DNA from: a virus
Strand: one strand, 5' to 3'
Virus record (IMG/VR): IMGVR_UViG_3300042261_000671
Span: 1-57,124 of that record
Length of the DNA: 57,124 nt
Shown: positions 2 through 55,481 of the stretch, one piece after another
How positions within the stretch are numbered: the first letter of the stretch is position 1
Layout: each line of letters begins with the position of its first letter
Notes under the pieces: generated by a model
What the model was told of the DNA's origin: nothing
What the model saw: only the letters and a program-made list of their open reading frames with translations
The model's database searches: none
Made by a program: the position numbers and the translations under genes

Positions 2-442
2 GGGGAATTAATTGAGTATGATAAAAATAAATATTTTAAAGGATGGAAGCATTTTATAACACGACGTCAATTAAAAAAATGGTTAGATGATGGTAGTGCT
101 ACCATTGAAAAAAGAGTTAATGAACAAATTAATGAGTTAGATCCTTATGGTGAAGAAGATTGGGATAATGATATTAAAACTAAATTCGTTAATTTTTTAC
201 GCAATATGGGAGCATATGATAGATATATGGCAAATTTTAATCATCCGATGCAGAGAGCATGGAGAAGAGATAAAGAAAAAAAAATAGATTTTGATGAATT
301 TATATTGGCATCTGATAAAGAATATGTACATAGTAATTTTATATGGGACGCATTTAAGTGGCCATGGACTCCAGAGGGGGTTAGTTTTTGGAATGTATTA
401 GATTCCAAATGGGGAAATTATTTAGCAAGAAATGGTAACTAA
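2..442 (+). CDS. Hypothetical protein with DPYGEEDW motif (5' end outside window)
   Basis: The reading frame is open from base 2 to the TAA at 440-442, so the gene starts before the window. An internal ATG at 206 is possible, but the coherent protein runs through from upstream. About 146 residues are visible. They contain one copy of the recurrent octapeptide DPYGEEDW (bases 140-163) after a basic, probably helical segment. The C-terminal part is rich in Trp, Phe and Tyr. The next gene begins 11 bases before this one ends. The function is unknown; by its neighbours it probably belongs to the targeting-peptide family, but its N-terminus is not visible. Confidence 0.75.
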   Translation, partial: GELIEYDKNKYFKGWKHFITRRQLKKWLDDGSATIEKRVNEQINELDPYGEEDWDNDIKTKFVNFLRNMGAYDRYMANFNHPMQRAWRRDKEKKIDFDEFILASDKEYVHSNFIWDAFKWPWTPEGVSFWNVLDSKWGNYLARNGN

Positions 443-878
443 ATTTAAAATATTTGAAACATATTATAATGATTTGTCTCCGTATGAGTATGGATTTTCC
501 ATACCTGGTTGTGTTAATATTGGTTGGTTAGATATTGATCATGATTTTGAGAAAGGATATGTCCCAGATGGTTTCATAGATAAATTAAAAAAACTTCCAA
601 TACTTTTTCAAAACGCTGGTTATCATTTTTGTCAGTTCTGCGAACGTGATGATAAAGGCATGGTGTCAAGAGATGCTATGAGTAGTAATATAAAAATGTC
701 TATAGGAGACGGTGTGGTTTATTTGACTCCATCGATGATAGTTCATTATGTAAGAGATCATCATTATAAACCTCCTCAAGAGTTTATAGATTCAGTAATG
801 AAAATGGAAAATATGAGTGATGCTGATGCTCATAAACATGTTAATATGTTATTAATTAAACATTTAAAAGGATTATGA
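432..878 (+). CDS. Conserved bacterial-type domain protein with capsid-targeting-like N-terminus
   Basis: A 148-residue protein. Its first residues, MVTKFKIFETYYND, match the short N-terminal peptide shared by many proteins of this phage and contain IFE, an [I/L]xE site like that cut by the T4 prohead protease. The rest resembles a small conserved bacterial family of unknown function: 'NIGWLD', then 'GYVPDGFIDKL', a C-x-x-C pair ('HFCQFC') and a tail of the type 'PSMIVHYVRDHHYKPPQEF'. The CxxC and the His/Pro tail suggest a metal site. The gene overlaps both neighbours and its TGA lies inside the next ATGA. Role in the virion is inferred from the N-terminus only. Confidence 0.75.
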   Translation: MVTKFKIFETYYNDLSPYEYGFSIPGCVNIGWLDIDHDFEKGYVPDGFIDKLKKLPILFQNAGYHFCQFCERDDKGMVSRDAMSSNIKMSIGDGVVYLTPSMIVHYVRDHHYKPPQEFIDSVMKMENMSDADAHKHVNMLLIKHLKGL

Positions 879-1414
879 TAAAGATATTTGAACAATTTAA
901 TTCAGAAAAAGATATTTTGTCTTGTGTTAGTTTGGACGTTCCTTATGGAGAAGAATGGATAGATGAATCTATAAGAAGTTTAGATCCATACAACGAAGAG
1001 AATTGGGATGAAGTGGATGTTATAGCTATACTCTTATTTAGAAACAATTATTATTTTGATTTTAATGTTGTAAAAGGAAAATTAGAAGATAGAGGAAGAC
1101 CTCCTAGATATTCTTTACGATATATTTTTCGCGATATAAACGGAAATGAATTATTTGAAACTTCTAGAATTATAAATATAAATGATGTTGATGAAGAAAT
1201 AGAGTTATCAGACGGTATGAATAGTTCAGGGGACGCTATAATATTACCAGAAAGTACTAGTAGAGAAGATATAAATAAGATAATTTCCAGAGTTCACGAA
1301 AGAATATATAGACAACAGAGAAGAGATGTAGAAAGTCAAATAAAGAGTATGAGAGACACACTTAATAAAACAGGAGACTTAAATAAAATTGTAAAATATG
1401 ATAATAAAATTTAA
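875..1414 (+). CDS. Targeting-peptide protein with two DPYGEE-type motifs
   Basis: A 179-residue acidic protein starting MIKIFEQFNSE, a capsid-targeting-like peptide with an IFE site. Two forms of the recurrent motif follow closely: VPYGEEW (938-958) and DPYNEENW (983-1006). The remainder looks like a small beta-rich domain followed by a charged C-terminal helix. The start is fixed by the ATGA overlap with the previous stop. The next gene begins inside its 3' end. No known fold was recognised. Confidence 0.8.
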   Translation: MIKIFEQFNSEKDILSCVSLDVPYGEEWIDESIRSLDPYNEENWDEVDVIAILLFRNNYYFDFNVVKGKLEDRGRPPRYSLRYIFRDINGNELFETSRIININDVDEEIELSDGMNSSGDAIILPESTSREDINKIISRVHERIYRQQRRDVESQIKSMRDTLNKTGDLNKIVKYDNKI

Positions 1415-2231
1415 AATATTTGAATCGATGTCAGGTTTAACATTCGGTGATGAGATCACTCACGAAGATGATAAAAAAATCGATTGGATAGTAGATGAAA
1501 CCGGTCGAGAAAGAGAAGAATGTATCAAGAGATATTTAGAATTCAACAAAGATGCAATAAGAGCAATAGAAACGATGTTGAATGAAGTCCAGGACGATGA
1601 GGATATAGCCGATTTAATGTCAGATACAAATTTAGACGAAGAAACTTGTAGACAGGCTTATTATGATAATAATAAAAATTATGACGCTGCTTATGATTAT
1701 CTAACAAACGATGGACCAGAAGATGATGGTGGATATGATGATGGAGGAGATGGATATGATGAAGAAGAAGATTACATCAATAGAGAAGATACTTTCGTTA
1801 GAAGAAATACGATCTATAATGATCCTACCATAAACGTTATTAAATCTTTTATATTAAAAGATATATTTGATGAATTCGGTGGATCTAGGAAGAAAACGGT
1901 AGATAAACTTAAAGAACTTGTAATGGGTAAAACTGTAAGAGTAGAAGATAAAGATGGACACGGTGGATATGTTAGTGTAAATGAAGGCGATGATGAAGAA
2001 GTTTGGGATGAAACTTCACCTGTAACAAATGTAATGTCATATGGAGATGACCCTTCAAGATATTTTCGTTTTGATAACGGTAATGGAGATAATCTAGAAT
2101 TACTTATAGATGATAGAATAACTATTATAGAGCATAAAAAAGTGGAACCTAAAAAACAAATAACTACCATTTCAAAATCTGATTCAAAAGATTCAGCTAG
2201 ATGGTGGGAACACGGAAAGGTAGATATATGA
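1398..2231 (+). CDS. Targeting-peptide protein with two UBA-like helical domains
   Basis: A 277-residue acidic protein starting MIIKFKIFESMSG (IFE site). Residues about 20-100 hold two tandem three-helix segments resembling ubiquitin-associated (UBA/NAC-type) domains: one around 'KIDWIVDETGREREEC', the second around 'DIADLMSDTNLDEETC' continuing to 'YDAAYDYL'. A Gly/Asp/Tyr-rich acidic linker follows, then a C-terminal domain with possible SH3-like strands ('GKTVRVEDKDGHGGYVSV'). In bacteria, UBA-like folds are known from EF-Ts. The ubiquitin link is not implied here; the fold is inferred from the helix pattern. It ends in a TGA overlapping the next ATG. Confidence 0.75.
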   Translation: MIIKFKIFESMSGLTFGDEITHEDDKKIDWIVDETGREREECIKRYLEFNKDAIRAIETMLNEVQDDEDIADLMSDTNLDEETCRQAYYDNNKNYDAAYDYLTNDGPEDDGGYDDGGDGYDEEEDYINREDTFVRRNTIYNDPTINVIKSFILKDIFDEFGGSRKKTVDKLKELVMGKTVRVEDKDGHGGYVSVNEGDDEEVWDETSPVTNVMSYGDDPSRYFRFDNGNGDNLELLIDDRITIIEHKKVEPKKQITTISKSDSKDSARWWEHGKVDI

Positions 2232-2830
2232 AAAACTACGGACAATTTATAAACGAATTCAATATGCCTTTTTTTAGAAGAGGACCAAAAATTAAGAAAT
2301 TATTAGGATTCTTTGGTAAATCTATTAATTTGAAAAATGTAAGGGGAGAAGAATTTGAAGAATGTGAAATAAAAATAGATCCTATATATGAATTTGGTAA
2401 AAAAACATTCAAGGTAGAACTTAATTTTTCTGAAGATCTTATGGCAGCTCACAGAGAAGTTGACCCATATGGTGAAGAAGAATGGTATGATGAAACAGAT
2501 AGAATTCCAAGAGCAAAAATAACATATAATTCACCATCTACATCTCTCAGAAATGAACAGAATGATAAACCAGAGATGATTCATATTGAATCAGATGATA
2601 ACATTAGAGTCACTAATCTTGAAACAGATAGAGACGGTATAAAGTTAATAACTGATATGTTTAATAGAATCTATAATTATGAAGGAGAAAAAAAGGTTTG
2701 GGCAGAGGACAATGTAAGACAACTTCTATTAAATGGATTAAATTGGAAAAAACGTGAAAGAAATCTATATATGAAAGTTATGGTAGACGAAGAAGATTAT
2801 GTTCCAATGGATTATCAACCAGGATATTAA
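2228..2830 (+). CDS. Targeting-peptide protein with DPYGEEEW motif
   Basis: A protein of 200 residues if started at the ATG at 2228, inside the ATGA overlap with the previous gene. A start further upstream at 2201 would add nine residues before the conserved peptide and is less likely. The N-terminus MKNYGQFINEFN closely resembles the T4 internal-protein targeting sequence and contains INE. One DPYGEEEW motif lies at 2462-2485. The rest is unrecognised, with a basic C-terminal stretch ('WKKRERNLYMKV'). It is the last gene of the first + strand cluster and is followed by a strong terminator. Confidence 0.8.
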   Translation: MKNYGQFINEFNMPFFRRGPKIKKLLGFFGKSINLKNVRGEEFEECEIKIDPIYEFGKKTFKVELNFSEDLMAAHREVDPYGEEEWYDETDRIPRAKITYNSPSTSLRNEQNDKPEMIHIESDDNIRVTNLETDRDGIKLITDMFNRIYNYEGEKKVWAEDNVRQLLLNGLNWKKRERNLYMKVMVDEEDYVPMDYQPGY

Positions 2831-2831
2831 A

Positions 2832-2866
2832 AAAAAAAAGGGAACCATATAGGTTCCCTTTTTTTT
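2832..2866. terminator. Bidirectional intrinsic terminator
   Basis: A perfect 7-bp stem GGGAACC/GGTTCCC (2840-2846 and 2852-2858) lies between an A-run and a T-run. It separates the + strand cluster from the convergent SPFH gene and can end transcripts from both sides. Confidence 0.9.
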
Positions 2867-2882
2867 AACAAACTGGATAAGT

Positions 2883-5207
2883 TTAATTTTTACTCTCGGA
2901 TTTGGTAATGTTTTTGGTTAACCAAGCTGCTAAAAGCTCACCTACACCACTCCCACCATTACTTGTGATTAAAGTATCTGGTACGATTTTAACATTTCCT
3001 TGTCCAATCTTTTCGGCAATCTGGACCTGGATAACACCCTCATTACCGATAGCTTGCTTCTGTTTCTCATAGGCTTCAGCAGTTGCGGTTCCTTTTGCAA
3101 AGATTGCTGTACCTTCAGCTTTACCCACAGCTTCGATACCTGCTGCAATACCTTCCTGTTTCAACTTTGTTGACTGTCCTTCACCTTCAGCAAGGAGAAC
3201 CGCTTTCTTCTTTTGATTGTCAGCGACCTTAACATCGATTTCGGACTGAACGAGATCCTTCTGCTTTTCAGCTTCTGCAGTGGTCTTTTCCATTGCGATA
3301 CGTGACTGCTGAGCTTTCTGCTGTTCGAAGAACATTGCTTGCTTCTGCTGTGCAATAATTCTTTCAGTCTGTGTTTTCATAAGATCCTCAGGAAGTTGGA
3401 TCTGACAGATAAGAACGCTCACCAATTCAACGTGATACTTTTCGAGTTCTGCTCTTGCTCTGTTTTCAGCCTTCTGCTGCTCTTCATGTCTGTTTTGCAT
3501 GAAGTTCATTGCTGATGTAGCGGAAGCCTGATTTCTGAAGCTGGAGTCAATCATTGGGTGAATAACGTGATCCACCAAATTCTTGATAGAACCAATCTTA
3601 GCTACCATATAAGGTGACTGATCTGGACGAACTCTAATAACAACCTTAACTGAAACTCGAATTTCGAAACCATCATGTGATACGACCTTAAGAGGGTCGA
3701 ATGGTGTATTCTGACTTTCATCCCAGTCAATAGTCTGGTTAGTAGTATCTACAATGTAGGGGATATAAGCTCTACGGTTAAGGTAATAAATACCAGGACC
3801 AGCAACGTCCCTTTGAATTCCTCTAAATCCCTTTGGTACTACGTATCTTTCAATACCAGTATCGAGACGTTTCTCAACACCACCGGCTAAAGTTTCATCT
3901 TCGGTTGGTGTAGCTGTAGGACTAGTGCCGACACCACCACCTTCTTTATTGGCAACTTGTTCAGTCATTTCTTTAACCTGTGGTGGTTCTTCACCAACGT
4001 TAGAAACAACAACAGCGACCTGACCTCTTTCAACGACTGCTACATCATCCAATTCGACACTAAACATCAAAGGATTGATATAATATGTACCTGGACGAAG
4101 AACGTCGAACTGAGGACCACGCTGACCACCATTAGCCAAGAAAGCTGTGACATCTTGGAAATTATTATGTCCTGTTACAGATTTAGCAACGTATTCTGTT
4201 TCTGGCAGAGGCTGACCGTCGCGGGCGACAACGATACCAACTTTCTTATCAGGAATAATAACCGTTTCTTTAACCTCAACCTTAAATAAGGCAGTATTGA
4301 TACGATATTTACCTGGAAGAAGAATACTAGTCTGAGGACCTTTTTCACCACCTTTATCTAAGAAGAACCTTCCATTCTGGAAATTATCATGCCCTTCAAT
4401 AGCTTTGGCTAAAAGCCTTCCTTCTGCAATAGGTTTACCATCCTGAGAAGTTACAATACCAATCTGCCCCTTTTCAATAACGGTAATCTTAACAGGAGTT
4501 ACCTTGAACAAGGCAGTATTGATACGATAAGTTCCCGGAGGAAGTGTTTGAATCTGAGGACCTTTTTCACCACCATTAGCTAAGAAAGCTGCACCATCTT
4601 GGAATAAATCGCATTCAACGACTTTACCAAAGATTCTACCCGCTGGTACTGGGCTACCGTCAATAGCTTCAACGACTCCAACTTCGTCCTCTTTAATGAC
4701 AGTCTGTTTAACTGTCTTTACAGTGAAAAGCAACGGATTAATACGGTAACCTCCAGTTCTTGTTTCCTTATCTGTGGCATAACCACCAGGAGGAATAATA
4801 CCAAGTTGGATACCTTTTTCTCCACCGTTCTTCAAAAATGCTTCACCATCCTGGAATAAATTACATTCCACTGGGCGAGCAAAGATTTTACCCGATGGAA
4901 CAGGATTACCGTCGTTAGACTGCACTAATCCAATTTCATCAGGACCGATGATCACGAACGGGAAAGCTCTCCTCTTATAAATAAAAGGAGGAATGAAGGT
5001 CAAACCAGGTCCTTTTACTCTAGCCTGAACCCCAATCTCGTTCGTCATAGCAAAAACTCTGTCTTTTGGCATCTGTTTACCAATCCATCGTCTTTCTAAT
5101 GTTTTAATTTCCCTACCACCAACATTCAGTATAGAACTGAAAACGATGATCAAAAGAAAAATCGCAAGGAGACTATATCCTGCGATTGTCAAAATTAAAC
5201 TTACCAT
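2883..5207 (-). CDS. SPFH/Band-7 (flotillin-like) membrane protein with repeated N-terminal domain
   Basis: A 774-residue protein with one N-terminal transmembrane segment (about residues 4-27), then four to five tandem repeats of about 75 residues. These share the pattern 'GG.(K/R)GPQ...L.PG.YRIN..LF.V' and '(E/K).GxVxxxDGxPxP'. A Band-7/SPFH domain follows (around 'VSHDGFEIRVSVKVVIRV') and a long Ala/Gln/Glu-rich coiled coil typical of flotillins. SPFH proteins form oligomeric rings on membranes. The gene is visibly GC-richer than its neighbours and uses different codons, so it was probably acquired recently from a bacterium. T4 rIIB is also reported to be SPFH-like; a role in membrane protection or superinfection exclusion is inference. 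Confidence 0.88.
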   Translation of the reverse strand: MVSLILTIAGYSLLAIFLLIIVFSSILNVGGREIKTLERRWIGKQMPKDRVFAMTNEIGVQARVKGPGLTFIPPFIYKRRAFPFVIIGPDEIGLVQSNDGNPVPSGKIFARPVECNLFQDGEAFLKNGGEKGIQLGIIPPGGYATDKETRTGGYRINPLLFTVKTVKQTVIKEDEVGVVEAIDGSPVPAGRIFGKVVECDLFQDGAAFLANGGEKGPQIQTLPPGTYRINTALFKVTPVKITVIEKGQIGIVTSQDGKPIAEGRLLAKAIEGHDNFQNGRFFLDKGGEKGPQTSILLPGKYRINTALFKVEVKETVIIPDKKVGIVVARDGQPLPETEYVAKSVTGHNNFQDVTAFLANGGQRGPQFDVLRPGTYYINPLMFSVELDDVAVVERGQVAVVVSNVGEEPPQVKEMTEQVANKEGGGVGTSPTATPTEDETLAGGVEKRLDTGIERYVVPKGFRGIQRDVAGPGIYYLNRRAYIPYIVDTTNQTIDWDESQNTPFDPLKVVSHDGFEIRVSVKVVIRVRPDQSPYMVAKIGSIKNLVDHVIHPMIDSSFRNQASATSAMNFMQNRHEEQQKAENRARAELEKYHVELVSVLICQIQLPEDLMKTQTERIIAQQKQAMFFEQQKAQQSRIAMEKTTAEAEKQKDLVQSEIDVKVADNQKKKAVLLAEGEGQSTKLKQEGIAAGIEAVGKAEGTAIFAKGTATAEAYEKQKQAIGNEGVIQVQIAEKIGQGNVKIVPDTLITSNGGSGVGELLAAWLTKNITKSESKN

Positions 5208-5346
5208 TTGTTTGTTGTATTAGATATTGCCTACTCTTTTTACCATTTTCGACGTCCTGGTTTTTTCGATATTTTACTACTTCTTATAGTCATGAAATCG
5301 AAAAAAGTTTGAACTTTTTTCGGAAATTTTAAACTCAAAAATTATA

Positions 5347-5359
5347 TTTAATATATAAA
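5347..5359 (+). promoter_or_regulatory. TATATA-type promoter element
   Basis: TTTAATATATAAA lies 4 bases before the ATG at 5363. It is one of many copies of this element at similar positions before genes on both strands. Confidence 0.45.
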
Positions 5360-5362
5360 TTT

Positions 5363-5770
5363 ATGGTTATGAAGTTTGCAATTTTTGAATCTTTTAATAA
5401 TAAAATACCAATGGCGCTAGAATGTGTTAAACCACCATTCGAATCTAAATTGGTTAATGAAACTTGGTGACATATTATATTAATATCTTTAAAAAATAGT
5501 AATGTAAAAGCGTCTCTTCATTGGTATAATGACGACAATACAACGGTGTATCTTAGTAGTCTTAATGTAGATGACGAATTAAGAAATAAAGGAATAGGTA
5601 GGAAGTTACAAAAGATTAGAGAAAAAATGGGTATAATTCTTGGAGCAAAAGTGGCATGTCTTTGGGCTGAAAAAGGATCGTGGATGCATAAATGGTATGA
5701 ACGTAGAGGTTATAAAGATTATAAAGAATATGATGAAAATCATATATGGATGAAAAAAAATTTGATATGA
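5363..5770 (+). pseudogene. GNAT acetyltransferase with targeting-like N-terminus, interrupted by one in-frame TGA
   Basis: The frame opens at ATG 5363 with MVMKFAIFESFNN (IFE site) and stops at TGA 5468-5470 after 35 codons. It then continues open in the same frame to 5770. The downstream part is a GNAT fold: a beta strand 'TTVYLSSLNVDDELRNKGIG' with the acetyl-CoA loop RNKGIG, then 'WYERRGYKDY', the usual last strand. No ATG follows the TGA in frame; a GTG at 5546 would give only 74 residues lacking the first strands. It may be a nonsense pseudogene or a UGA readthrough. Since TGA acts as a stop in ATGA overlaps nearby, code-wide reassignment is unlikely. Confidence 0.65.
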
Positions 5771-6708
5771 TGATTACAAATTTTGCAATTTTTGAATCAA
5801 CTTATGTTACTCATCAAAATGGTGGCAGAGCTTTCGCTGTCAATTATGATGAAGAATCTGGATTTGTTGATGTGATGAAGAATAAATACGGTAGATACTC
5901 AAAAGTAAAGAAAGTTTGGACAGGCGACAAACAAGATGATAATAGTAGTGTACTTGTAGAATTCCCACATAAAAAATATATGTTTATTGGAACCGAAATA
6001 TACGAATTTGAAACAGATGAATTTATAACAAATTATTACTCAAGAATAGGTAATAGTGATGTTCCCTATCCAGTGGCTTTAAGCGAGAAATATGTATATT
6101 TCATGTTAGAAAAAAAACATGTAAATAGAAAAGAATTTCCTAAAAATACTGATTGGGCTGATTGTTATAGATTTTATTACGATAATAAAGATAATTTATC
6201 AATTAAAGGGTTTAAAAATTTGAAAAATATAGAAGAAAATATTTCAGAAAGAATAAGATGGCCTTTTAAAAATAAAACAATTAATCCAAACGACCCTTAC
6301 GGTGAAGAATATTGGGAAAATCCTGATGATATTTATTGCGATTATTGTCATGGTGTAATACATCCAAAAGAAAACCTGTTTATTTTATTTGGTAAACCAG
6401 TGCATGCAAATGTGAATTGTTTAATGGAATTTAATAGAAAAACTAAACAATATATTAGTAATGTAGAATCAACCCCATATAATACCGCTAAAAAACTATT
6501 AAAAAGATGGGGGTATTTCGATAAGGTTCAGGAAAACAAAAAAGAAGATATTGATCCTTATAATGAAGAAGATTGGAATACTGAACATAAACATATTTGG
6601 GAAGATAAAGTTGAAAGAGATCCGAGAGGACTTTGTCCCCCAATAGACTACAGAGAATGTAAAATATGTGGTAAGAAGTATAGAACACATGTTGGTTACG
6701 GTAAATAA
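5767..6708 (+). CDS. Targeting-peptide protein with two DPYxEE motifs and two Cys-rich sites
   Basis: A protein of 313 residues if started at ATG 5767, within the ATGA overlap with the preceding stop. The N-terminus MMITNFAIFEST nearly repeats that of the acetyltransferase just upstream. Two motif copies are present: DPYGEEYW (6292-6315) and DPYNEEDW (6553-6576). The first is followed by a possible zinc site, 'IYCDYCHGVIHPKENLF', and the C-terminus has 'YRECKICGKKY', a second CxxC. The layout (N-terminal domain, motif, Cys-site domain, motif, Cys-site tail) suggests that the motif separates modules. Function is unknown. Confidence 0.8.
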   Translation: MMITNFAIFESTYVTHQNGGRAFAVNYDEESGFVDVMKNKYGRYSKVKKVWTGDKQDDNSSVLVEFPHKKYMFIGTEIYEFETDEFITNYYSRIGNSDVPYPVALSEKYVYFMLEKKHVNRKEFPKNTDWADCYRFYYDNKDNLSIKGFKNLKNIEENISERIRWPFKNKTINPNDPYGEEYWENPDDIYCDYCHGVIHPKENLFILFGKPVHANVNCLMEFNRKTKQYISNVESTPYNTAKKLLKRWGYFDKVQENKKEDIDPYNEEDWNTEHKHIWEDKVERDPRGLCPPIDYRECKICGKKYRTHVGYGK

Positions 6709-6713
6709 TAAAT

Positions 6714-8213: not shown

Positions 8214-8214
8214 A

Positions 8215-8230: not shown

Positions 8231-9448
8231 ATGAATAAATCTGAGATAGTTAAAAGTTTTTTTGATAACGCAACTAGATTATTAAATCTATACAAAGAGA
8301 TAGAAAATTTTCTAAAAATAGAAAATGACATAGAGAAAATTGTTTCATTTTTGGAAGAAAAGAAACAAGAAACAGATATTATCGAAGATGAAATAAATAA
8401 ATTAAGATCAGAATCAGAAAAATTTTGTAAAGACATTCCACAAAACGAAAAATTAAATTCCAAATACTTAGATAAAATTCATTCTAAATTTCAGAAGATA
8501 ATAAAAGGATTTACATATTGGTATAAACATTATACAGCATATCAAAAAATAGCCATTAAATATAAATGTTGGAAAGTTAGATTCCTCCTACATGATATAG
8601 AGAAACCATTCCTTAATATATTCATGAGCTACGAAAATGTACATAGAATACACAGACACATATCACCACACCACGTAGAATCCTTTAGAAAGAAAAAAGA
8701 TTATCTTGGGATGTTAATAGATTGGGAATGTGCTAGATATACTAAACCAAAAATGCCATTGAATGCTAAAGAAACATGTGATAAATTTTATCCAGAAGTA
8801 AAAGATAAAATATATCCATTATTAAAGAAGCATGGATTGATGGAATTTGTAAAAACGTATGAATCATTTAATTCTCCTATTACAATAGCTGTCACTGGAT
8901 CTATTGCTTCTGGTAAATCTACTGTGTGTAGTTCAATAGAAAAAGATTATGGATATTTAGTATATTATAGTGATATTGAGGCTAAAAATCTTGCAAATAA
9001 TAACAACGAATTAAAGAATGATATAATAAAAGAATTTGGAGAAGAATCATATTTGGGTGGAGTTTATAACACCAAATACATTGCCAGTATAGTATTCAAT
9101 GATAAAAATGAATTAGAGAAATTAAATAGAATATTTAGAATACATCTTAGAAATGATTGGAAAAATTTTATAAATCAACACAAAAATGAAAAATTCATAT
9201 TTTATGAATCTGCTCTTATATTTGAGCATAATCTTGTTAAAGAATATGATTATGTAATTTGTGTTTATGCTAGTTTAGATACTATAAGAAAAAGACTAAA
9301 ATCTAGAAATAACTACAACGATGTAGAGATCGAAAATAGATTAAGTAAACTATCTAATCAAGAGTATAAAATCAAGAATTCAGATTTTTCTATAAATACA
9401 GATTTTGATTGGAAAGATCAATTAGATGAGATAATGCGCAAATTATAA
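8231..9448 (+). CDS. coaE: Dephospho-CoA kinase with an N-terminal DUF5662-like domain
   Basis: A protein of 405 residues from ATG 8231; the frame is open to a GTG at 8201, but that would translate the terminator and promoter. Residues about 220-405 are a dephospho-CoA kinase: P-loop 'TGSIASGKST' (G near residue 223), the 'YSDIEAKNLA' substrate segment, 'IFYESALIFE' and an arginine lid with 'RKRLKSRN'. It would phosphorylate the 3'-OH of dephospho-CoA, the last step of CoA synthesis. Residues about 60-210 match a small bacterial domain (pattern 'HDIEKPF', 'HRHISPHHVES', 'WECARYTKPKMPLNAKE'). This fusion is unusual. The gene converges on coaD with a 6-base overlap. Confidence 0.88.
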   Translation: MNKSEIVKSFFDNATRLLNLYKEIENFLKIENDIEKIVSFLEEKKQETDIIEDEINKLRSESEKFCKDIPQNEKLNSKYLDKIHSKFQKIIKGFTYWYKHYTAYQKIAIKYKCWKVRFLLHDIEKPFLNIFMSYENVHRIHRHISPHHVESFRKKKDYLGMLIDWECARYTKPKMPLNAKETCDKFYPEVKDKIYPLLKKHGLMEFVKTYESFNSPITIAVTGSIASGKSTVCSSIEKDYGYLVYYSDIEAKNLANNNNELKNDIIKEFGEESYLGGVYNTKYIASIVFNDKNELEKLNRIFRIHLRNDWKNFINQHKNEKFIFYESALIFEHNLVKEYDYVICVYASLDTIRKRLKSRNNYNDVEIENRLSKLSNQEYKIKNSDFSINTDFDWKDQLDEIMRKL

Positions 9449-9889
9449 CTGCTCTCTAATTTTAGTAGAACTTATATTTTCAACGTCCTCGGTAGCTATC
9501 ATGTAGATTGTTTCTATTTCTGGTTTTAGATTCTTATTATAATGATCCACATACTTTTCGAAATCAAAATCTTTTGTATTTCTCATTCCTCTTAGCATAT
9601 ATTTAGCTCCCATTTTTACACAATAATCTACAGTCCATCCTTTATATGAATCAATTATAATTTTTGGATTATTGCCGAAGTGTTTCTTTATGATCTCTTT
9701 TCTTTCTTCTATAGTATAATGTCCCTTCTTCTCTTCATTTATACCAACAGCTACTATTATTTTATCAAATAAAGGAAGAAATCTTTTGACCAGTTTTATA
9801 TGACCTTCGTGTATTGGATCAAAACTACCAGGAAAAACTGCGATTTTCTCGGTCATACTGTATTGTTCGTTGAATGTTTTTATTCTCAT
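9443..9889 (-). CDS. coaD: Phosphopantetheine adenylyltransferase with a capsid-targeting-like N-terminus
   Basis: A 148-residue protein. From residue 12 it is a CoaD: 'AVFPGSFDPIHEGH' (nucleotidyltransferase T/HxGH motif as HEGH), 'RGMRNTKDFDFE' (the CoaD RG-R-xxDFxxE signature) and 'ISSTKIRE' (ISSTxxR). It transfers AMP from ATP to 4'-phosphopantetheine. The protein ends right after the ISST motif, about 20-25 residues short of E. coli CoaD, lacking the last helix. The extra N-terminus MRIKTFNEQYS resembles the phage's targeting peptides; a start at Met12 would remove it. The TATATA element sits 6 bases before the first ATG, favouring the longer form. Confidence 0.9.
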   Translation of the reverse strand: MRIKTFNEQYSMTEKIAVFPGSFDPIHEGHIKLVKRFLPLFDKIIVAVGINEEKKGHYTIEERKEIIKKHFGNNPKIIIDSYKGWTVDYCVKMGAKYMLRGMRNTKDFDFEKYVDHYNKNLKPEIETIYMIATEDVENISSTKIREQL

Positions 9890-9938: not shown

Positions 9939-10376
9939 ATGAAAAATGTTTTCTTATTTGAGGAATTTAATTTATTCAAACCAAAACCTCTTGATGAAAA
10001 AGTCAAAAGGTTAATAGAAGATATTAAATCTACTTTTAATATTGAAAACTTATCATTTCATAAAGAATTTGAAGATAGAACTTTAACACAGACTTTAGAA
10101 TATGTATATAAAGGGCAAAATGTAAAAGTAGAGAGATGGGATTTGATGAGCCCGCATAATCCTCTATGGGGATGGAGATTTTATATAAATAATGAAAATT
10201 TAAGAGGAGATACAAGTAAAAAACTTATAAAAAATCTTTGGGGATTCTTATCAGAAAAATGGAGCGATAAAAATAAACAGAATAGAAACGATAAATTAGA
10301 TAGATTATTAAATACTCCAGAGGATGAATTAATTAACAAAAAAGAAGATCCATACGGGGAAGAAAATTGGTTATAA
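9939..10376 (+). CDS. Targeting-peptide protein with C-terminal DPYGEENW
   Basis: A 145-residue protein starting MKNVFLFEEFNLF (LFE site). A basic and aromatic middle region ('GQNVKVERWDLM', 'NPLWGWRFYINNEN') looks like a small beta fold. A charged helix follows, and the protein ends with DPYGEENW plus one residue (10347-10370). Terminal placement of the motif is also seen in the proteins at 24009 and 52803. Function is unknown. Confidence 0.78.
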   Translation: MKNVFLFEEFNLFKPKPLDEKVKRLIEDIKSTFNIENLSFHKEFEDRTLTQTLEYVYKGQNVKVERWDLMSPHNPLWGWRFYINNENLRGDTSKKLIKNLWGFLSEKWSDKNKQNRNDKLDRLLNTPEDELINKKEDPYGEENWL

Positions 10377-13015: not shown

Positions 13016-13333
13016 ATGAACAATTTGAAAACATATGAAGAATATAATATAGAGATAGATCCTTATGGTGAAGAGTTCTGGGATGATGAAAACTTAATAT
13101 TAGTTGATTGGAACACAGAAATAGAGATCGGAGACGAAGTTTACATAAGATATGAGAGAACAGACGATGTAAAATATCTTGGAGAAATTATAAAAATAGA
13201 GAATAAAAAAATTCGTTCATTAACAGGAATGCCAGATTATTTTGATATGACATACACATTAAGAGTTGGTAACGATACAAGAGAAATGGATATGGGAGAA
13301 TTAATAAGATATAAAGCTAAAATAAAAAAATAA
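13016..13333 (+). CDS. Targeting-peptide protein: DPYGEEFW plus SH3-like domain
   Basis: A 105-residue protein that shows the family plan in its simplest form. It has MNNLKTYEEYNIE, then at once DPYGEEFW (13058-13081), then one small beta-barrel-like domain ('EIGDEVYIRYERTDDVKYLG', continuing with 'EIIKIENKKIRS'). The domain resembles the module between two motif copies in the 892-residue protein at 52803 ('GDKVRSRMSGNVGFVRAV'). It is the last gene before the non-coding island. Confidence 0.78.
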   Translation: MNNLKTYEEYNIEIDPYGEEFWDDENLILVDWNTEIEIGDEVYIRYERTDDVKYLGEIIKIENKKIRSLTGMPDYFDMTYTLRVGNDTREMDMGELIRYKAKIKK

Positions 13334-13352: not shown

Positions 13353-13386
13353 AAAAAAACCAGACCTTTTGAGTCTGGTTTTTTTG
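13353..13386. terminator. Bidirectional intrinsic terminator
   Basis: An 8-bp stem AACCAGAC/GTCTGGTT (13358-13365 and 13373-13380) is flanked by A- and T-runs. It ends the + strand gene run, and would also end a minus-strand transcript of the neighbouring non-coding island. Confidence 0.9.
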
Positions 13387-14254
13387 TTCCCCTACCTTCA
13401 CACCAGTCTTCCTCCTGGTCGACTTTCGTCTTATCGGGCGCCAAATAGGGCTGTCAGAGGTTCACTTTGTAACTTGACATTCGTAACCGTTACCAGTTAC
13501 AAGATAAGGGATTGTGTACTCACATATGTTGGTGGGACTACTTGCCTCTTAGCGACTTCGCTCGGACTTTCTGAAGGTCCTTCTGCTAATCAACCAATCA
13601 TAGTTGATGAAAAAAAGAAAAAAATAATTTGATGAGACTCCTGACTACTCATAATCCTCGGATTTCATCTACCATTATTCACCCACGTTCCACAGATGGT
13701 GATCGGCCACTGTGTTTTACCTTCGTCAGACACCTTACGGTGCAGACACATCAGTGAACGGGAGGTCCTTTCCTCCAACCAGATACAGCCATCAGCATAT
13801 ATACATGCGATTTGTCTGGTTCTTACGTCACTCGGGGTTGACCAACCCCGGCTATTTCAGGTTTATGGTACGAAATCTGTAACACCTGCTCCACAGGCTT
13901 TTCAGTCTGGGCTACATTGCGTTAGGGGCTGGCGACCCCTTCATTCCGCCACAAATTATTTTTTCAATCTTTCAAAGAACTTTATGAGCACTTATGGATA
14001 GTGAAGCCCTTATTCACAGTGAGGGTCGGGTGAAGGTCTAGTATATAGAGACACCTTATACCACACTGACATCAATTTTCAGATCAATATTCTACGAACT
14101 CCCTGAAATCGTCTATCCATATATCAAAGAACTTAATTTGATTCTGTGAGATTCTGTCAAATTTCTTCGGATACCTACTGGTGGGTTGAAAAGTTATCTC
14201 GCCTTTCAGTATTCAGTCAGTCTGTGGACTGATAAAATTTTGTTTATCTCTAAT
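13387..14254 (-). ncRNA. Candidate large structured non-coding RNA
   Basis: About 870 bases without a credible gene, clearly GC-richer than the surroundings and dense in hairpins. Examples are CGGGGTT/AACCCCG (13833-13850), AGGGG/CCCCT (13924-13939), GGAGG/CCTCC (13761-13776), CACC/GGTG (13730-13741), GGAC/GTCC (13564-13580) and AGCGA/TCGCT (13551-13562). On the minus strand a TATCTTTG promoter box lies at 14271-14264 and an intrinsic terminator at 13380-13358, giving a transcript of about 0.9 kb. Large ornate RNAs (GOLLD, ROOL) are known in phages; I cannot say it is one of them. Strand is inferred from promoter and terminator. Confidence 0.55.
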
Positions 14255-15448: not shown

Positions 15449-15604
15449 GTGAAGGAAGATTTTATTATTTGCCCTTACTGTGATAGTAAAGGGTATGTTA
15501 TAGAAGATAATAAAAGCATACAGTGTATTGTATGTGAAGGAAAAGGAATAATTATTACCACTTCCTCTCAAAAGGATTACGAAGAGATCCAGCCTGTTGA
15601 TTAA
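15449..15604 (+). CDS. Small DnaJ-type zinc-finger protein, antisense to the terminase 3' end
   Basis: A frame of 51 residues from GTG 15449: 'FIICPYCDSKGYV' and 'CIVCEGKGIIIT' form the two CxxCxxKG halves of a DnaJ-like zinc ribbon, here only one pair. The last 50 bases overlap the 3' end of the terminase gene on the other strand. No ATG is available. The paired CxxC-GxG signature makes it more than a chance frame, but its start and expression are unproven. Confidence 0.5.
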   Translation: MKEDFIICPYCDSKGYVIEDNKSIQCIVCEGKGIIITTSSQKDYEEIQPVD

Positions 15605-24008: not shown

Positions 24009-24656
24009 ATGTTTAATTTCTTAAGAAAATTAAATAGAAAGAAAGATGAGATTCCAGTTCAAATAAAGGAAGTTCAACAGGAAGAAGATAAAACTATACA
24101 AGAAAATTGGTGGGGAGGAACATGGTCTCCTGGATCTTTTACATTAACTGGAACAACAACACCAATAGAGGGGAAATGGCATCCTGGTAATTTTTCAACA
24201 AGAGAAACAATAAATGAAGATGAAGGTAGAGCATTAGTATCTGATAATAACGGCAGTTCATCTTGGGTTAAACCCAGATATGGTTTATCAGGAATGTCAG
24301 GTTCATCTGGCGTGTCTGGAGTATCTGGAGTGTGTGGAACCACTGGATTTGGAATTAGTGGTTTTAGTGGGACTATGGGGTTTGGAGTTAGAGGAACTTC
24401 AGGTAAAAATAAACCTATAGATTATTATGAATACATTGCCGAGAATGTAGATAACGCTATAAGATATAGCGAATATATTGCTGATAACTTAGATCATAGC
24501 GGAGTGATTTTGACACATTTAAAATATCTTGATTATTTGGCTAATGAATTAGATTCTAAATCCAGTGAGATTAGAAATTATTTACAAAAGAAAAAAGAAG
24601 TAAAGAGAATTTATTCTGATGCTGATCCTTACGGAGAGGAGAATTGGGAAGCATGA
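24009..24656 (+). CDS. Collagen-like Gly-x-Ser protein with C-terminal DPYGEENW
   Basis: A 215-residue protein. A basic N-terminal helix ('MFNFLRKLNRKKDE') is followed by two W-x-x-G-x-F units ('WWGGTWSPGSF', 'KWHPGNF') like those in the protein at 21554, then a collagen-like run of G-x-S triplets (residues about 97-135), a helical segment ('YYEYIAENVDNAIRYSEYI') of a kind seen in phage structural proteins, and DPYGEENW at the very end (24624-24647). It is the one motif-bearing protein whose N-terminus is not the targeting peptide. Probably a structural or surface protein. Confidence 0.7.
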   Translation: MFNFLRKLNRKKDEIPVQIKEVQQEEDKTIQENWWGGTWSPGSFTLTGTTTPIEGKWHPGNFSTRETINEDEGRALVSDNNGSSSWVKPRYGLSGMSGSSGVSGVSGVCGTTGFGISGFSGTMGFGVRGTSGKNKPIDYYEYIAENVDNAIRYSEYIADNLDHSGVILTHLKYLDYLANELDSKSSEIRNYLQKKKEVKRIYSDADPYGEENWEA

Positions 24657-26834: not shown

Positions 26835-27368
26835 CTAATCTAATTTTTCTAACAAATAATATAAAATTTTTTTAGTCTTTTCGAGAAAGGTTAACTCTCT
26901 ATATTTAGATAAAGTATTATAATATAATTTTCCTATACTTATTTTATAAGCGTATCCTGTATTATCATCCCTTACAGTAAGAACAGATCTATAATCAATA
27001 CATTTTCCAACTTGTCTTGAAGCCATTAAGATACTATATCTGTTTTCTGTATATAATTTAATAATATCTTTTTGATACTCTCTTAGTTTCATTTGTCCAA
27101 CAGTACCATCTTCAAGTTTAATTTTACAATAATGTTCAGCAAAATAATATACAGATAATTTACATTTTATATATTCTTCAATTTCATCTGGAGTCATAGC
27201 AAATTTTATGCCTTTTCTACGTACTCCTTCGTTAGAATTAAACCACAATCTTTCGGTTCTTTTTAATGGTAAAGCTAATTTCTCTTTCTCTATTATTTCT
27301 TGAACCTTTAATGTTGATATAATGTTTGTTTCTTCTGTCTTTCTTGTATTTTCTTTCTTTGGCGGCAT
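26835..27368 (-). CDS. Terminase large subunit, N-terminal part, ending in the N-half of a split intein
   Basis: A 177-residue protein. Residues 1-122 are the N-terminal TerL extein: a Lys/Glu-rich start, 'CKLSVYYFAEHYCKI', then 'LREYQKDIIKLYTENRYSIL' and 'MASRQVGK', the Walker A up to its Lys (T4 has LRDYQ...SRQLGKT). At Cys123 the sequence switches to an intein N-fragment of 55 residues and then stops. The missing T of GKT and the rest of the ATPase are at 15555-17819. Joined, GK-TVSASIVILHLVLFN aligns with T4 gp17 after the P-loop with no gap. A TATATA element precedes the ATG. Confidence 0.93.
   Translation of the reverse strand: MPPKKENTRKTEETNIISTLKVQEIIEKEKLALPLKRTERLWFNSNEGVRRKGIKFAMTPDEIEEYIKCKLSVYYFAEHYCKIKLEDGTVGQMKLREYQKDIIKLYTENRYSILMASRQVGKCIDYRSVLTVRDDNTGYAYKISIGKLYYNTLSKYRELTFLEKTKKILYYLLEKLD
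26838..27002 (-). mobile_element. Split intein N-fragment (IntN, 55 aa) in terminase
   Basis: It begins with Cys1 and a block A pattern, 'CIDYRSVLTVRDDNTGYAYK', then 'ISIGKLYYN', and ends in an amphipathic helix ('FLEKTKKILYYLLEKLD') before the stop. The helix mirrors the one that begins the C-fragment at 17819, which may help the halves find each other. No endonuclease motif is present in either half. Confidence 0.9.
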
Positions 27369-50063: not shown

Positions 50064-50071
50064 ATCTTAAA

Positions 50072-51262: not shown

Positions 51263-51267
51263 TATTA

Positions 51268-52053
51268 ATGAAAAAAATTATTAAAACATACGAAGAATGG
51301 TATTTTAATAACGCTTCTAATCAAGATATTCCAGCTGTAGGTGTAGATCAAGAACTTGGTTATCCTAAGCGTTTTCCAGATCCTGAGGCTACTCGTACAC
51401 TTATAACTGATCCAGATGACGAATTTCAATATCCAAATAAAATAATAGAAAACACACACGGCATGACGAGTCATGCTATAAAACACATGTGGGAATTTGA
51501 TCCAAATCTATATAAACAATTAATAAGAAGAACAAAAGATATTCTAAAGAAGTATATAGATAGTGATGATATGAAAATCATAAATAAAAAAGGAGCAATC
51601 GAAGATGATATTTATGAAGATGAGGATATAGACGAAATGAGTCTTTATAATATAATAAACGCTTTAGATTTCATTCAAGATAAAACCTTCAAGAAAATGA
51701 GATTGAATGAAATTGAAAATAGAATACAAACTGAAATCATTTTACCATTAAGAAGAGAATATAAAAAGTTAATAGAAAATATTTTACAAAACGCAGTAAG
51801 AATAGAGGATTATAAACCAGAAATGGAAAATAGAGCAGTTTATTTTAATGGAGATAATGGAAGAGATTTATTATATTACGATCCTAATATTAAAGGTCTT
51901 ATGGTTGTAACAAAAGATAAAGAAAGAGTTTTTACTTTATTTGGAATAAGTAAAAATGATATTCATAGTTATTTTGCTTCATTAAATCCGGGGTCAAAGA
52001 AAACAAGACCTTCTAAAGAGACATTACAATTATTGAGAAATTACGAAAGATAA
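51268..52053 (+). CDS. Targeting-peptide protein, function unknown
   Basis: A 261-residue protein starting MKKIIKTYEEWYFNN, the targeting peptide in its TYEE form. An acidic segment ('DDIYEDEDIDEMSLYNII') and a long helical region follow, then a C-terminal domain with 'NRAVYFNGDNGRDLLYYDPN' and 'LMVVTKDKERVFTLFGIS', which looks like a small alpha/beta unit. Its 3' end overlaps the convergent gene by 13 bases. No family recognised. Confidence 0.68.
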   Translation: MKKIIKTYEEWYFNNASNQDIPAVGVDQELGYPKRFPDPEATRTLITDPDDEFQYPNKIIENTHGMTSHAIKHMWEFDPNLYKQLIRRTKDILKKYIDSDDMKIINKKGAIEDDIYEDEDIDEMSLYNIINALDFIQDKTFKKMRLNEIENRIQTEIILPLRREYKKLIENILQNAVRIEDYKPEMENRAVYFNGDNGRDLLYYDPNIKGLMVVTKDKERVFTLFGISKNDIHSYFASLNPGSKKTRPSKETLQLLRNYER

Positions 52054-52787
52054 TCTATTTTTATAGCTAAACGATAATATATTCCAACTTCGTCAGGATC
52101 AGAGTTTTCTTCTATTATAGTAAATTTATATTTATCATTACTTAATTCTTGGAATATTTTTTTATATGCTTTGAATTTGTGTCTAGTATAAGAACCTATT
52201 AAAACGTATTTCATGGAATACTCTGATAAAAAGTCCAAAAATATCTTAAATACTGTATTTAATATTCTGTGCATGTCGTTTATATTTATCTGATTTATTG
52301 ATTTCATTGGTTTATAAGCAGCGTATATTTCTCTGTTGGCATAAAATTGTTTTTGATCTGCCCAATCAATAGATACGACATCATCTAATTTCATGTATCT
52401 TTCATCATCATAATCTTTAGTATATCCGAGCGCAACATTATAAACTTCACCTGTGGTGGATTTAAATTCGTATATAAAGTCATATTCATCACGTAATGGA
52501 TTAGGCTCTTCTTTTATAAATTTATATGGATATGTATCATTAATATTAACAAATTCATATAATTTATTTTCATTGTTCCAATTTTCTTCGCCATAAGGAT
52601 CCAATTCTGGATTTTTGATCTTTTTAATTTTTTTAAACTTTTTTAATTTTTTAGAAGTTTTTGGAAAAATACAAGAAAATAAAGTATTCCTTCCTCTTGT
52701 TCTCTCTAAATCTCTCCATATTTTATAATATACAGGAATATCTTTGAGTGTCATTTCATTAATGAATTCATTATAATTTTTTATCAT
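52041..52787 (-). CDS. Targeting-peptide protein with one DPYGEENW
   Basis: A 248-residue protein starting MIKNYNEFINEMTLKD (INE site; among the best matches to the T4 peptide). A very basic stretch ('KTSKKLKKFKKIKKIKNPE') is followed directly by DPYGEENW (52578-52601), then an alpha/beta region ('VYNVALGYTKDYDDERYMKL') and a C-terminal domain with 'SMKYVLIGSYTRHKFKAYKK'. The basic patch may bind DNA. The last domain is unrecognised. Confidence 0.72.
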   Translation of the reverse strand: MIKNYNEFINEMTLKDIPVYYKIWRDLERTRGRNTLFSCIFPKTSKKLKKFKKIKKIKNPELDPYGEENWNNENKLYEFVNINDTYPYKFIKEEPNPLRDEYDFIYEFKSTTGEVYNVALGYTKDYDDERYMKLDDVVSIDWADQKQFYANREIYAAYKPMKSINQININDMHRILNTVFKIFLDFLSEYSMKYVLIGSYTRHKFKAYKKIFQELSNDKYKFTIIEENSDPDEVGIYYRLAIKIDYLS

Positions 52788-52802
52788 TATTTCATATTTT
52801 TT

Positions 52803-55481
52803 TTAATCTTCCCAAATCTCTTCTCCATATGGATCAAGTTCTGAAACTATTCTATGTGGCACTATTATTTCTCTTGCAGTATAAACTTTATCATTGTAAT
52901 CAGTAATAAATAAAAATCCTTGATCATATGATATATTTTTAACTAAGACATGAACTCTTTTGTAAACTGCTTGACCCCAATGCAACTCTCTATCAAATAC
53001 TTCTATTTCTATTTCTGTTCCTTTTATTAGTCTTTTTAGTTCTCCAACTATAGTTTTGATTCTTTGAATAGAAGGTTTCTTTTTTCCTTTTGGTTTAATT
53101 AGATCTTTTATATTTATTATTCCAGTAGATTTCATACTTTCTGAAGTTTCCCCCCAATCTTCTTCGCCGTAAGGATCTTCAGTGTTGTATATTTTATCTT
53201 TAATTTCTATTATGTATATGGGATTATGTTCATCTAATATTTTTTTCATTTTTACATCCCTTATTACAGGTTCGCCTGTATTAGACATAGTTCCGATTTT
53301 TACTTTTTTAGTATAATGAAGAAATATTTTATATTCTTCTGAAGACACGTTCTCTAGAATTACATCATTTTCGATTCTTTGTTTCCATGTAGCCGATGGA
53401 TCCATTTCCCAATACGTAAAAGTTATATTTTTTCCAATAATGTCTTTCAACCCTTCTGATATTTCTTTTGCATTTACACTATTAACATACCTAATTGGAA
53501 AAAGAGGAGTATAAACTTTTTGTGGAATTTTAGTTATCGCTTCTGTAATATGATCGATCCAATCCTCTTCACCATAAGGATCAGCATCAGAAAATATCTG
53601 TTTTGGTCCTTCATAAATTTCTAAATCAGAAGGATCACAATATTGAGACCAATTTCCCGGCCAGTCAACAAGCACTGGCCATTTTCTTCCGTGAATTACT
53701 GCTCTCACAAATCCTACATTTCCAGACATTCTGCTTCTTACTTTATCTCCTTTTTGAAGATCATCTATTGATAAATATCCATTGGATTCGACTGCCCAAT
53801 CTTCTTCCCCATAAGGATCTTCAGGGGTTATTATTCTTAGTGCTTCTCTTACATATAAAACTAAATTATCATTAACTGGAAATTCACTATATGAAGGACC
53901 ATTTTCATCACCTAGGTCTATAAATACCATAGGATATTCTGAAAATTTTTCATTAGAATAAACAGCATTCAATAATAAATATTCATTACTTCTTCCAAGA
54001 GATATGTCATTTAATTTTTGTGGATTACTAAACCAAGCTTTTATTGACACATACATTCCTATGTATTTTGATAATTCTTTTTCAATATATTTATATCTAT
54101 TTATATGAAATTTGTATTTATCATATAATGTATCCAATCTAACAATTTTTATAACATTATCTAATTTAACTCCCTCTGAAGTCCAATCTTCTTCCCCATA
54201 AGGATCTCTTTCAGATATTTCTCTTTTATTTATTATTCTAAGATCTCTACCTAAAAATATTCTATCTCCATTTAAAAATATTCTAGTTTCCCACCAATCA
54301 AAATCTCCCCACCTATTCTTTTCTACTCTAATATTCGTAATAATTTCTATTTTTGGTTCAAACTGATTATCAGGATCATATGTATAATAAAAATATTTAA
54401 CTCTTCTATCGAGTAAAATGTCTTCTAATTCTTTTTTTAAATGTTCGGAATCACTTTGACCGTAGAGCCAATGAAATTCGTCTATTAATTTATTAGTTTT
54501 AAGATATGTATATTCTACGTTATCATCAAAGCTAATATCCTTGTAGAGATATCTTTTATCATCTACATTTTTCATTTCTCTTAACCTGTTTTCCGGATTT
54601 ATATCATCACCCCAATCTTCTTCCCCGTATGGGTCATCTTCTCTATATGTGTATTTTTTATTTAATGGATAAATTTCGTGTTTTATAAAATGAATCTTAT
54701 TATTATATAAATCATTTATAATGTCAGCGAATTCTGTTAATGTAACGAGATAATCATAGTATTTTTTATAATTGCTCGCATTTTCGATTTTACACCATCT
54801 TGTAAATTCACGACTATAATTATCTGTAAATCCAAAACAAAAATATACTCCATTATCAAAAAGATGATCTTGCATATTATCAGGATCTATTTTGAATCCA
54901 TGATCTATTAAAAATTTCTTAACAGGAGATATAAGTTCGATATCTTCTTTATATACAGCAAAGAAAGTTCTTTTCAAAACTTCAAGTCCGTTTCTCACTA
55001 TAGCATCAGATAATCTATTGGCATTTATTGATGGATATTGATTTGCTTCATTTGTATCCCATACTTCTTCACCGTAAGGATCTTCTGGAATAAATCTTCT
55101 TTCAGGTTTTGCTTTCTTAACAATAGTTATAGGATAATTCATTGATAATACGTAAGTATTATTATCTTTATCGTAGATAACAACTAGACCAGCCTCTTTG
55201 TTTCTTGATCCTTTAATGCCTGAATTGCGAGGTGGGAAATATTCTATTCTTTTTATAAGTACATTTTCTGCTCTTTTTTTAAGACCTGCTAATTTAACTT
55301 CAGTAAATGACACATAATACCTAGATAAAAGGGCATTTATTCTCATTCCTAATTCTTCATCATTTATAACATGTTCATATTTTAAGTGATCTATCATACC
55401 TTTAACTGTACCAAAAGTTGTTCCAGGAAGGTCTGAAATAAATAATTCGTTTAAGGAAATGCCATTATAACTTTTAATCAT
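52803..55481 (-). CDS. Seven-motif (DPYGEExW) modular targeting-peptide protein
   Basis: An 892-residue protein starting MIKSYNGISLNELF (LNE). DPYGEExW occurs seven times, at about residues 134, 283, 426, 555, 634, 769 and 883. The copies separate stretches of about 80-150 residues that look like independent domains. The module after residue 562 has an SH3-like pattern ('KGDKVRSRMSGNVGFVRAV' then 'WPVLVDWPGNWSQY'), as do single-motif proteins elsewhere. Others contain 'YFYYTYDPDNQFEP' or 'IGKNITFTYWEMDPSATWKQ' (similar to each other). The last copy ends the protein. It reads like a chain of the small proteins of this phage fused together. Confidence 0.8.
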   Translation of the reverse strand: MIKSYNGISLNELFISDLPGTTFGTVKGMIDHLKYEHVINDEELGMRINALLSRYYVSFTEVKLAGLKKRAENVLIKRIEYFPPRNSGIKGSRNKEAGLVVIYDKDNNTYVLSMNYPITIVKKAKPERRFIPEDPYGEEVWDTNEANQYPSINANRLSDAIVRNGLEVLKRTFFAVYKEDIELISPVKKFLIDHGFKIDPDNMQDHLFDNGVYFCFGFTDNYSREFTRWCKIENASNYKKYYDYLVTLTEFADIINDLYNNKIHFIKHEIYPLNKKYTYREDDPYGEEDWGDDINPENRLREMKNVDDKRYLYKDISFDDNVEYTYLKTNKLIDEFHWLYGQSDSEHLKKELEDILLDRRVKYFYYTYDPDNQFEPKIEIITNIRVEKNRWGDFDWWETRIFLNGDRIFLGRDLRIINKREISERDPYGEEDWTSEGVKLDNVIKIVRLDTLYDKYKFHINRYKYIEKELSKYIGMYVSIKAWFSNPQKLNDISLGRSNEYLLLNAVYSNEKFSEYPMVFIDLGDENGPSYSEFPVNDNLVLYVREALRIITPEDPYGEEDWAVESNGYLSIDDLQKGDKVRSRMSGNVGFVRAVIHGRKWPVLVDWPGNWSQYCDPSDLEIYEGPKQIFSDADPYGEEDWIDHITEAITKIPQKVYTPLFPIRYVNSVNAKEISEGLKDIIGKNITFTYWEMDPSATWKQRIENDVILENVSSEEYKIFLHYTKKVKIGTMSNTGEPVIRDVKMKKILDEHNPIYIIEIKDKIYNTEDPYGEEDWGETSESMKSTGIINIKDLIKPKGKKKPSIQRIKTIVGELKRLIKGTEIEIEVFDRELHWGQAVYKRVHVLVKNISYDQGFLFITDYNDKVYTAREIIVPHRIVSELDPYGEEIWED

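Follow-up and report, generated by a model that had tools for sequence, protein, structure and literature searches.

Copies of DPYGEExW in the window and in related genomes

The window analysed here is the whole stretch of 57,124 nucleotides of the IMG/VR virus record IMGVR_UViG_3300042261_000671, and the element in question is an octapeptide, DPYGEExW (as in the tag peptide RVYSELDPYGEENWDE), which recurs in otherwise different proteins and is called the tag below. In the six-frame translation of the window, 14 exact copies were found, six on the plus and eight on the minus strand, together with the variants DPYNEENW, DPYNEEDW and the shortened VPYGEEW (Table 1). The original prediction had counted about 17 copies in nine proteins, and all 17 were recovered where it had placed them, spread over nine open reading frames (ORFs) and never in a stray frame; the reversed control pattern gave no match in the window. 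A capsid-targeting-like start had been assigned to seven of the eight carriers with a visible N-terminus, and this was borne out, some of these starts lying only at an internal methionine or matching loosely; the carrier at 24009–24656 is the only one of the eight without such a start. Searches of PHROGs and Pfam with the window carriers found little. The C-terminal part of the carrier at 52041–52787 resembles DUF6934, just below the cut-off, and a homologue in L031 (52% identical) of the carrier at 9939–10376 has its tag likewise at the end. The structure of the carrier at 13016–13333, predicted from the single sequence, was uninformative (pLDDT 37).

Table 1. Tag copies, their carriers and an untagged DUF7919 protein in the window
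Feature	Position	Strand	Remarks
DPYGEEDW	140..163	+	in truncated ORF 2-442
DUF7919 protein	432..878	+	untagged; capsid-targeting-like start
179-aa carrier	875..1414	+	capsid-targeting-like start MIKIFEQFNSE; two motif variants
VPYGEEW	938..958	+	shortened variant
DPYNEENW	983..1006	+	
209-aa carrier	2201..2830	+	internal start MKNYGQFINEF
DPYGEEEW	2462..2485	+	
320-aa carrier	5746..6708	+	two tags between domains
DPYGEEYW	6292..6315	+	
DPYNEEDW	6553..6576	+	
145-aa carrier	9939..10376	+	C-terminal tag (DPYGEENWL-stop)
DPYGEENW	10347..10370	+	C-terminal
105-aa carrier	13016..13333	+	capsid-targeting-like start MNNLKTYEEYN, tag, GDxV-type small domain
DPYGEEFW	13058..13081	+	directly after start peptide
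215-aa carrier	24009..24656	+	collagen-like stretch, YxEYIAExLD repeats, C-terminal tag
DPYGEENW	24624..24647	+	C-terminal
248-aa carrier	52041..52787	-	start MIKNYNEFINE
DPYGEENW	52578..52601	-	
892-aa protein	52803..55481	-	seven modules, one tag after each
DPYGEEIW	52812..52835	-	two residues ahead of stop
DPYGEEDW	53154..53177	-	
DPYGEEDW	53559..53582	-	
DPYGEEDW	53796..53819	-	
DPYGEEDW	54183..54206	-	
DPYGEEDW	54612..54635	-	
DPYGEEVW	55059..55082	-	then WDTNEA (cut-site-like)

Judged from its genes, the window is part of the genome of a huge Bacteroidetes Mahaphage closely related to the 735,411-bp phage LR756501, and its virus belongs among the largest known kinds of bacterial virus. 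Its RecA and terminase are 90.5 and 76% identical to those of LR756501, the next relatives being LR756504, LR756502 and LR745206 (634–642 kb) and then the Lak phages, and its core genes are nearest to those of >630-kb Bacteroidetes phages. Mahaphages and their predicted Bacteroidetes hosts were described by Al-Shayeb et al. (PMC7162821). LR756501 and LR756503, of equal length and with equal matches, were counted as one genome; LR756502, LR745206, the Lak phages and LR756500 were read in part.

LR756501 contains 103 exact copies, and an unbiased search for over-represented spaced peptides ranked DPYGEExW first in this genome, with 86–89 tagged proteins against 0.03–0.05 expected; about 9% of its genes carry the tag. 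The C-terminal form occurs there in 34 independent families (0.003 expected). A pattern search beyond the window, as originally proposed, was run on the 2.9 million viral contigs of IMG/VR and returned 90 stretches with the true pattern and none with the reversed one, which was also absent from 29 records searched, LR756501 included. Close relatives vary the peptide within limits, e.g., DP[YFL][GDNES]EExW in contig 001186. A loosened pattern had no match in three sister giants, two Lak phages, PTm1, LR756500, PAU, MaF61, two cyanophages and one Campylobacter phage. In 257 Gb of bacterial genomes, 35 single matches were obtained, many in lactobacilli and none clustered, so a bacterial origin or the mimicry of a host motif was rejected.

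When the motif was masked, 272 carriers across the fetched relatives fell into 162 homology clusters, 101 of them singletons, which upholds the view that the motif is an independent linear element and not part of one homologous domain. Seven of its eight positions are almost invariant, and among homologous carriers the tag residues are 78–84% identical, the flanks about 50% and the x position 37%. It was also correctly predicted that the peptide is conserved and not the DNA. The 100 copies in LR756501 are encoded by 79 distinct 24-mers, and their codon entropies are close to the genome background. Between genes with a C-terminal tag, the DNA identity falls from 0.83 in the tag to 0.36 in the preceding 60 nt and to 0.31 after it. 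The constant core positions, the free codons and the unrelated flanking DNA point to a true linear peptide. Like other short linear motifs, the same peptide is found in unrelated proteins, outside a common domain and conserved above its flanks, and DPYGEExW is almost certainly a peptide tag for some partner.

Carriers, targeting-like starts and pieces of head proteins

The 100 copies in LR756501 comprise 18 N-terminal, 42 internal and 40 C-terminal ones, and 28 of the last group lie exactly two residues ahead of the stop; K-R-[VI]-[FY]-[ST]-x-[LE] often stands before a C-terminal tag. The copies are at domain boundaries or at most about four residues from the C-terminus, which agrees with the placement first described in the window. 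The internal copies separate modules. In a 1179-aa protein, for example, four tags set apart a deaminase, small domains and a tRNA nucleotidyltransferase. The idea that internal tags are fossil C-termini left by fusion or fission was weakly shown, by one match of a segment to a C-terminal form. Most of the tagged proteins are small and specific to the lineage and have no place in the conserved core; they are encoded in arrays of small genes (25 adjacent tagged pairs compared with 7.3 after shuffling). Tagged enzymes include tRNA nucleotidyltransferase, deaminase and GNAT, and one carrier is a tail-sheath C-terminal domain plus the tag. Membrane anchors and GDxV domains were rejected as a shared carrier class because neither was enriched in LR756501. 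Tandem leucine-rich-repeat-like proteins in L288, L026 and L035 each start with a targeting-like peptide and DPFxEEDW or DPYGEExW.

The carriers are enriched in targeting-like starts in LR756501 (odds ratio 2.4, p = 5e-4) and in contig G001 (odds ratio 2.7), an association limited by the test itself, a rough regular expression applied to gene calls made by the longest-ORF rule with ATG starts. Tagged genes without a targeting start usually share an operon with a start-bearing gene (48/58 vs 317/625, p = 1.6e-6). In other contigs the start is followed immediately by a DPFGEEDW form, as in MKYLKYFENMEIDPFGEEDW. Moreover, [ILVTMF]NE sites, which resemble the prohead-protease cut (L/I-x-E in T4, PMC9026906), were found at most 15 aa downstream of 22 of the 190 non-C-terminal tags, compared with 5.9 ± 2.4 at random; the upstream count is equal to the downstream one and comes partly from the start peptide. 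In an alignment of DUF7919 proteins, the tag of an LR756501 paralogue precedes INE/S where the targeting start of the untagged homologues, among them the protein at 432–878 of the window, ends in LNE/K. Just upstream of the ATG (4–8 nt), the motif TTTTTAATATATAG was observed in LR756501 in 9/14 tagged and 17/49 untagged targeting-start genes and in 3/62 core genes, and TATATAG lies close to the start codon in 9/14 tagged genes with targeting starts and in 2/11 without. The TTTTTAATATATAG leaders are perhaps a leaderless promoter class. At 9443–9889(-) of the window, a CoaD/cytidylyltransferase-like enzyme is encoded behind a capsid-targeting-like start (MRIKTFNEQY), and this enzyme may possibly be packaged in the head.

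Pieces of head proteins were identified by comparing the profiles of 116 core families with small proteins homologous to part of one. Small pieces of the portal, protease-scaffold or capsid protein were tagged in 5/12 cases compared with 62/690 other small proteins (p = 0.003), and in a second set in 20/25 compared with 146/898 (p = 1e-11), whereas pieces of other core proteins were tagged in 0/9 and 3/38 cases. The background tagging of other small proteins in these DPYGEExW sets is 9–16%, and the rates in the IMG/VR loci, which were fetched for holding the tag and are thus biased, were compared internally. Five tagged capsid-protein pieces, which represent residues of about 21–386 and 504–553, lie close together in contig G007 (3974–6409); the intact proteins identified are the capsid protein Gp23 (1.8e-25) and the portal phrog_213 (1.7e-66). 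The repeat YxEYIAExLD is confined to the protease-scaffold protein and, in multiple copies, to one tagged family (window 24009–24656 and relatives). The tag is over-represented on stray head-protein pieces and so looks like an address system tied to particle building. A "shattered" second set of head genes, i.e., extra small genes for single pieces of the capsid protein, portal or prohead protease, was observed in LR756501, LR756504, LR745206, LR756502 and the IMG/VR contigs G007 (3974–6409) and G002 (70970–72699), with similar breakpoints across lineages.

The sister Mahaphages (634–642 kb) have no DPYGEExW; they possess genome-wide C-terminal tags of their own, RKx[RK]IxxL and RDxKIxxIL. These were found by an unbiased search for over-represented peptides at protein ends only, counted by homology clusters: RKxxIxxL in 49 clusters of LR756504 (0.5 expected), RDxKIxxI in 20 clusters of LR745206 and 8 of LR756502 (0.02 expected in each), and RDxKI in 17 clusters of LR756502 (0.26 expected). 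Nearly all of these tags are no more than eight residues away from the stop. The sister tags are similar to one another, and DPYGEExW is unlike both. The same search of protein ends gave nothing comparable in PTm1, PAU, LR756500 (200 kb) and Lak-A1 (360 kb). Capsid pieces of the sister phages end in RDIKIDTLL, RKRKIENIF, RKDKIEKIL, RSDRIENLL and RQHKIEELL, and their head pieces carry the phage's own tag in 3/10 cases by a strict pattern (p = 0.04) and in 5/10 by a loose one (p = 0.004), compared with 8–12%; the loose pattern was chosen after two cases had been seen, which weakens the argument for a role in the head. The equivalence of the tags across lineages is supported only by this tagging of sister head pieces. 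The core orthologues are untagged, so there was no tag swap to compare between orthologues of different lineages. The "KLY" C-terminus of ribosomal protein bS21 was rejected as a model for the sister tags, since the ends do not match. Over-represented N-terminal peptides were also observed, KTLxxLYE in Sphingomonas phage PAU and LxESLFDD in Prevotella phage Lak-A1, which are possibly these phages' own capsid-targeting starts.

Possible functions of the tag

We hypothesize, tentatively and just short of calling it probable, that DPYGEExW is a lineage-private docking label for a putative phage-encoded partner in head assembly. This receptor would co-evolve with the tag and bind it. The proteins so bound would belong to the pathway of virion-head assembly, and the label would thereby gather accessory and injected proteins, together with pieces of head proteins, at or in the prohead. 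The tag would be retained on the mature product, because it follows the targeting start and adjoins, but does not contain, the predicted prohead-protease sites. A docking site for a head component is the best supported of the three functions originally suggested, and a head-docking label explains best the evidence from starts, operons, NE sites, head pieces and the scaffold repeat. On the other hand, several observations weigh against it. The intact capsid protein, portal and protease-scaffold are untagged, only 4/147 core orthologue pairs are tagged, and 7/58 small tagged proteins look membrane-anchored. Moreover, the co-occurrence with capsid-targeting-like starts stands as an association in the DPYGEExW lineage but not as a rule, since 26 of the 40 C-terminal copies in LR756501 have no such start and the sister tags are depleted in targeting-start genes (odds ratio 0.35, p = 0.02; 0/74 operon mates). 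A wider scheme, which we regard as rather doubtful, is that every one of the largest phages puts a private address label, read by its own putative receptor, on about a tenth of its proteins. Such a label would be a viral code for sorting self from nonself, different in different lineages, and it would gather accessory proteins, among them a second, shattered head set, into virion assembly.

The main rival to head docking, fairly unlikely in our view, is that the carriers are baits which disable host or competing-phage proteins. Each would combine a binding module (a host-protein binder, or a capsid, portal, protease or sheath piece poisoning the assembly of a rival phage) with a tag handing the target to a phage-encoded hub or protease, and the private tag would bar rival phages from the same route. 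Baits would account for small, lineage-specific, arrayed carriers outside the conserved core, for pieces of virion proteins such as the five capsid pieces and the tail-sheath domain, and for the membrane-anchored carriers, but they leave unexplained the targeting-like starts, shared operons and nearby NE sites of the DPYGEExW lineage; the protease or adaptor is putative, and enzymes carry the tag too. It is also unlikely that the tag is a general address for a hub or compartment of the infected cell (replication site, membrane or ribosome) unrelated to the virion, with head pieces and targeting starts being incidental. The wide range of carriers and the sister tags, which are C-terminal only and unlinked to targeting starts, would suit such an address, whereas the association with head pieces in several genomes and relatives, and that with operons and start peptides in the DPYGEExW lineage, would not. 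That the octapeptide itself is a cleavage or processing signal in polyproteins is very improbable. Tags do separate modules (seven copies in 892 aa, four in 1179 aa) and lie near NE sites, but 40/100 copies end about two residues from the stop, where cleavage would release nothing, and others are N-terminal. The glutamate-type sites are outside the motif. The earlier suggestion of a linker recognised by a protease is not supported: the predicted cut sites adjoin the tag and none is inside it. Scarcely credible, finally, is shared ancestry or spread, as one small homologous domain or as an in-frame mobile repeat like the Rickettsia palindromic elements: a weak similarity about 20–35 residues upstream of some C-terminal tags hints at it, but the 162 unrelated families, the freely varying synonymous codons and the lack of DNA-level similarity between copies and their flanks speak against it, and the identities in and around the tag refute it at the DNA level.

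Were a receptor of the tag identified, it would show how giant phages keep a very large proteome in order and would throw light on hundreds of otherwise featureless genes, since every tag carrier would become a candidate for the same pathway; it would also supply a peptide–receptor pair ready for use. In uncultured phages, the tag also points out proteins that are likely to be associated with the head or injected, and this list can be tested. The open-access full texts searched (subscription papers and preprints being outside this scope) contained no description of the peptide, of tags in jumbo or huge phages or of relevant short linear motifs; the labelling of about 100 unrelated proteins with one near-invariant peptide by a phage is not reported in this literature, nor is the exchange of one label for another between relatives.

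Origin of the window and comparison with known systems

Bases 1–127 of the window match exactly the end of IMG/VR contig 3300042261_000916, which is therefore probably its neighbour in the same genome and alone contains 25 further tag copies. In the same way, contig 000976 begins with the sequence that ends contig 000981, and the overlapping contigs come from one genome or from closely related ones. At 31957–34698(-) the window encodes a 913-aa secreted protein with a signal peptide, InlB-type repeats and a type IX secretion C-terminal sorting domain (Por_Secre_tail), which fits a Bacteroidota host. The terminase large subunit is in two parts 9 kb apart. The N-part at 15555–17819(-) stops at the Walker A region and continues into intein-like sequence, and the C-part at 26835–27368(-) has an intein-like start (weak Intein_splicing match, E 0.006) before a T4-type terminase. 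LR756501 has the same C-part, and the terminase looks like a split-intein gene. A 774-aa SPFH/Band 7 (flotillin-like) protein is encoded at 2883–5207(-), with a DUF805b RNA motif (Rfam RF02914) just upstream at 5228–5262(-). Two ORFs at 13369–14001(+) are of odd composition, without a tRNA or Rfam match, and are probably not genes.

The tag can be compared with several known systems. The capsid-targeting sequence (CTS) of T4 internal proteins is an N-terminal propeptide of 10 residues removed at L/I-x-E by gp21 (PMC9026906). Like the CTS, the tag is a short peptide common to unrelated proteins; it co-occurs with a CTS-like start and adjoins predicted prohead-protease sites. Unlike the CTS, it is C-terminal, internal or placed after the start, with 18/100 copies in LR756501 being N-terminal; it does not itself end in a cleavage site, the NE sites lying beside it, and the mature protein is predicted to retain it. 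The bacterial C-terminal degrons sit at the extreme C-terminus, whereas 60/100 tag copies are elsewhere. As in the split inteins and fractured genes of phages, genes are broken in these viruses (the terminase here, head genes in relatives), but the tag has no splicing motifs. Cellular C-terminal sorting tags such as the peroxisomal PTS1 mark unrelated proteins across a proteome close to their C-termini. The tag does so as well, although it is viral and lineage-specific and also occurs at N-termini and between domains. Encapsulin shells share the HK97 fold of phage capsids, and their cargo-loading peptides, like the tag, are short and carried by diverse cargo. These peptides are mostly C-terminal; of the tag copies, 40% are C-terminal and the rest internal, in part in tandem, or N-terminal. 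Encapsulins load one or a few cargos per shell, whereas the tag, with seven near-invariant residues, marks about 90 proteins, and its binding to a shell is putative.

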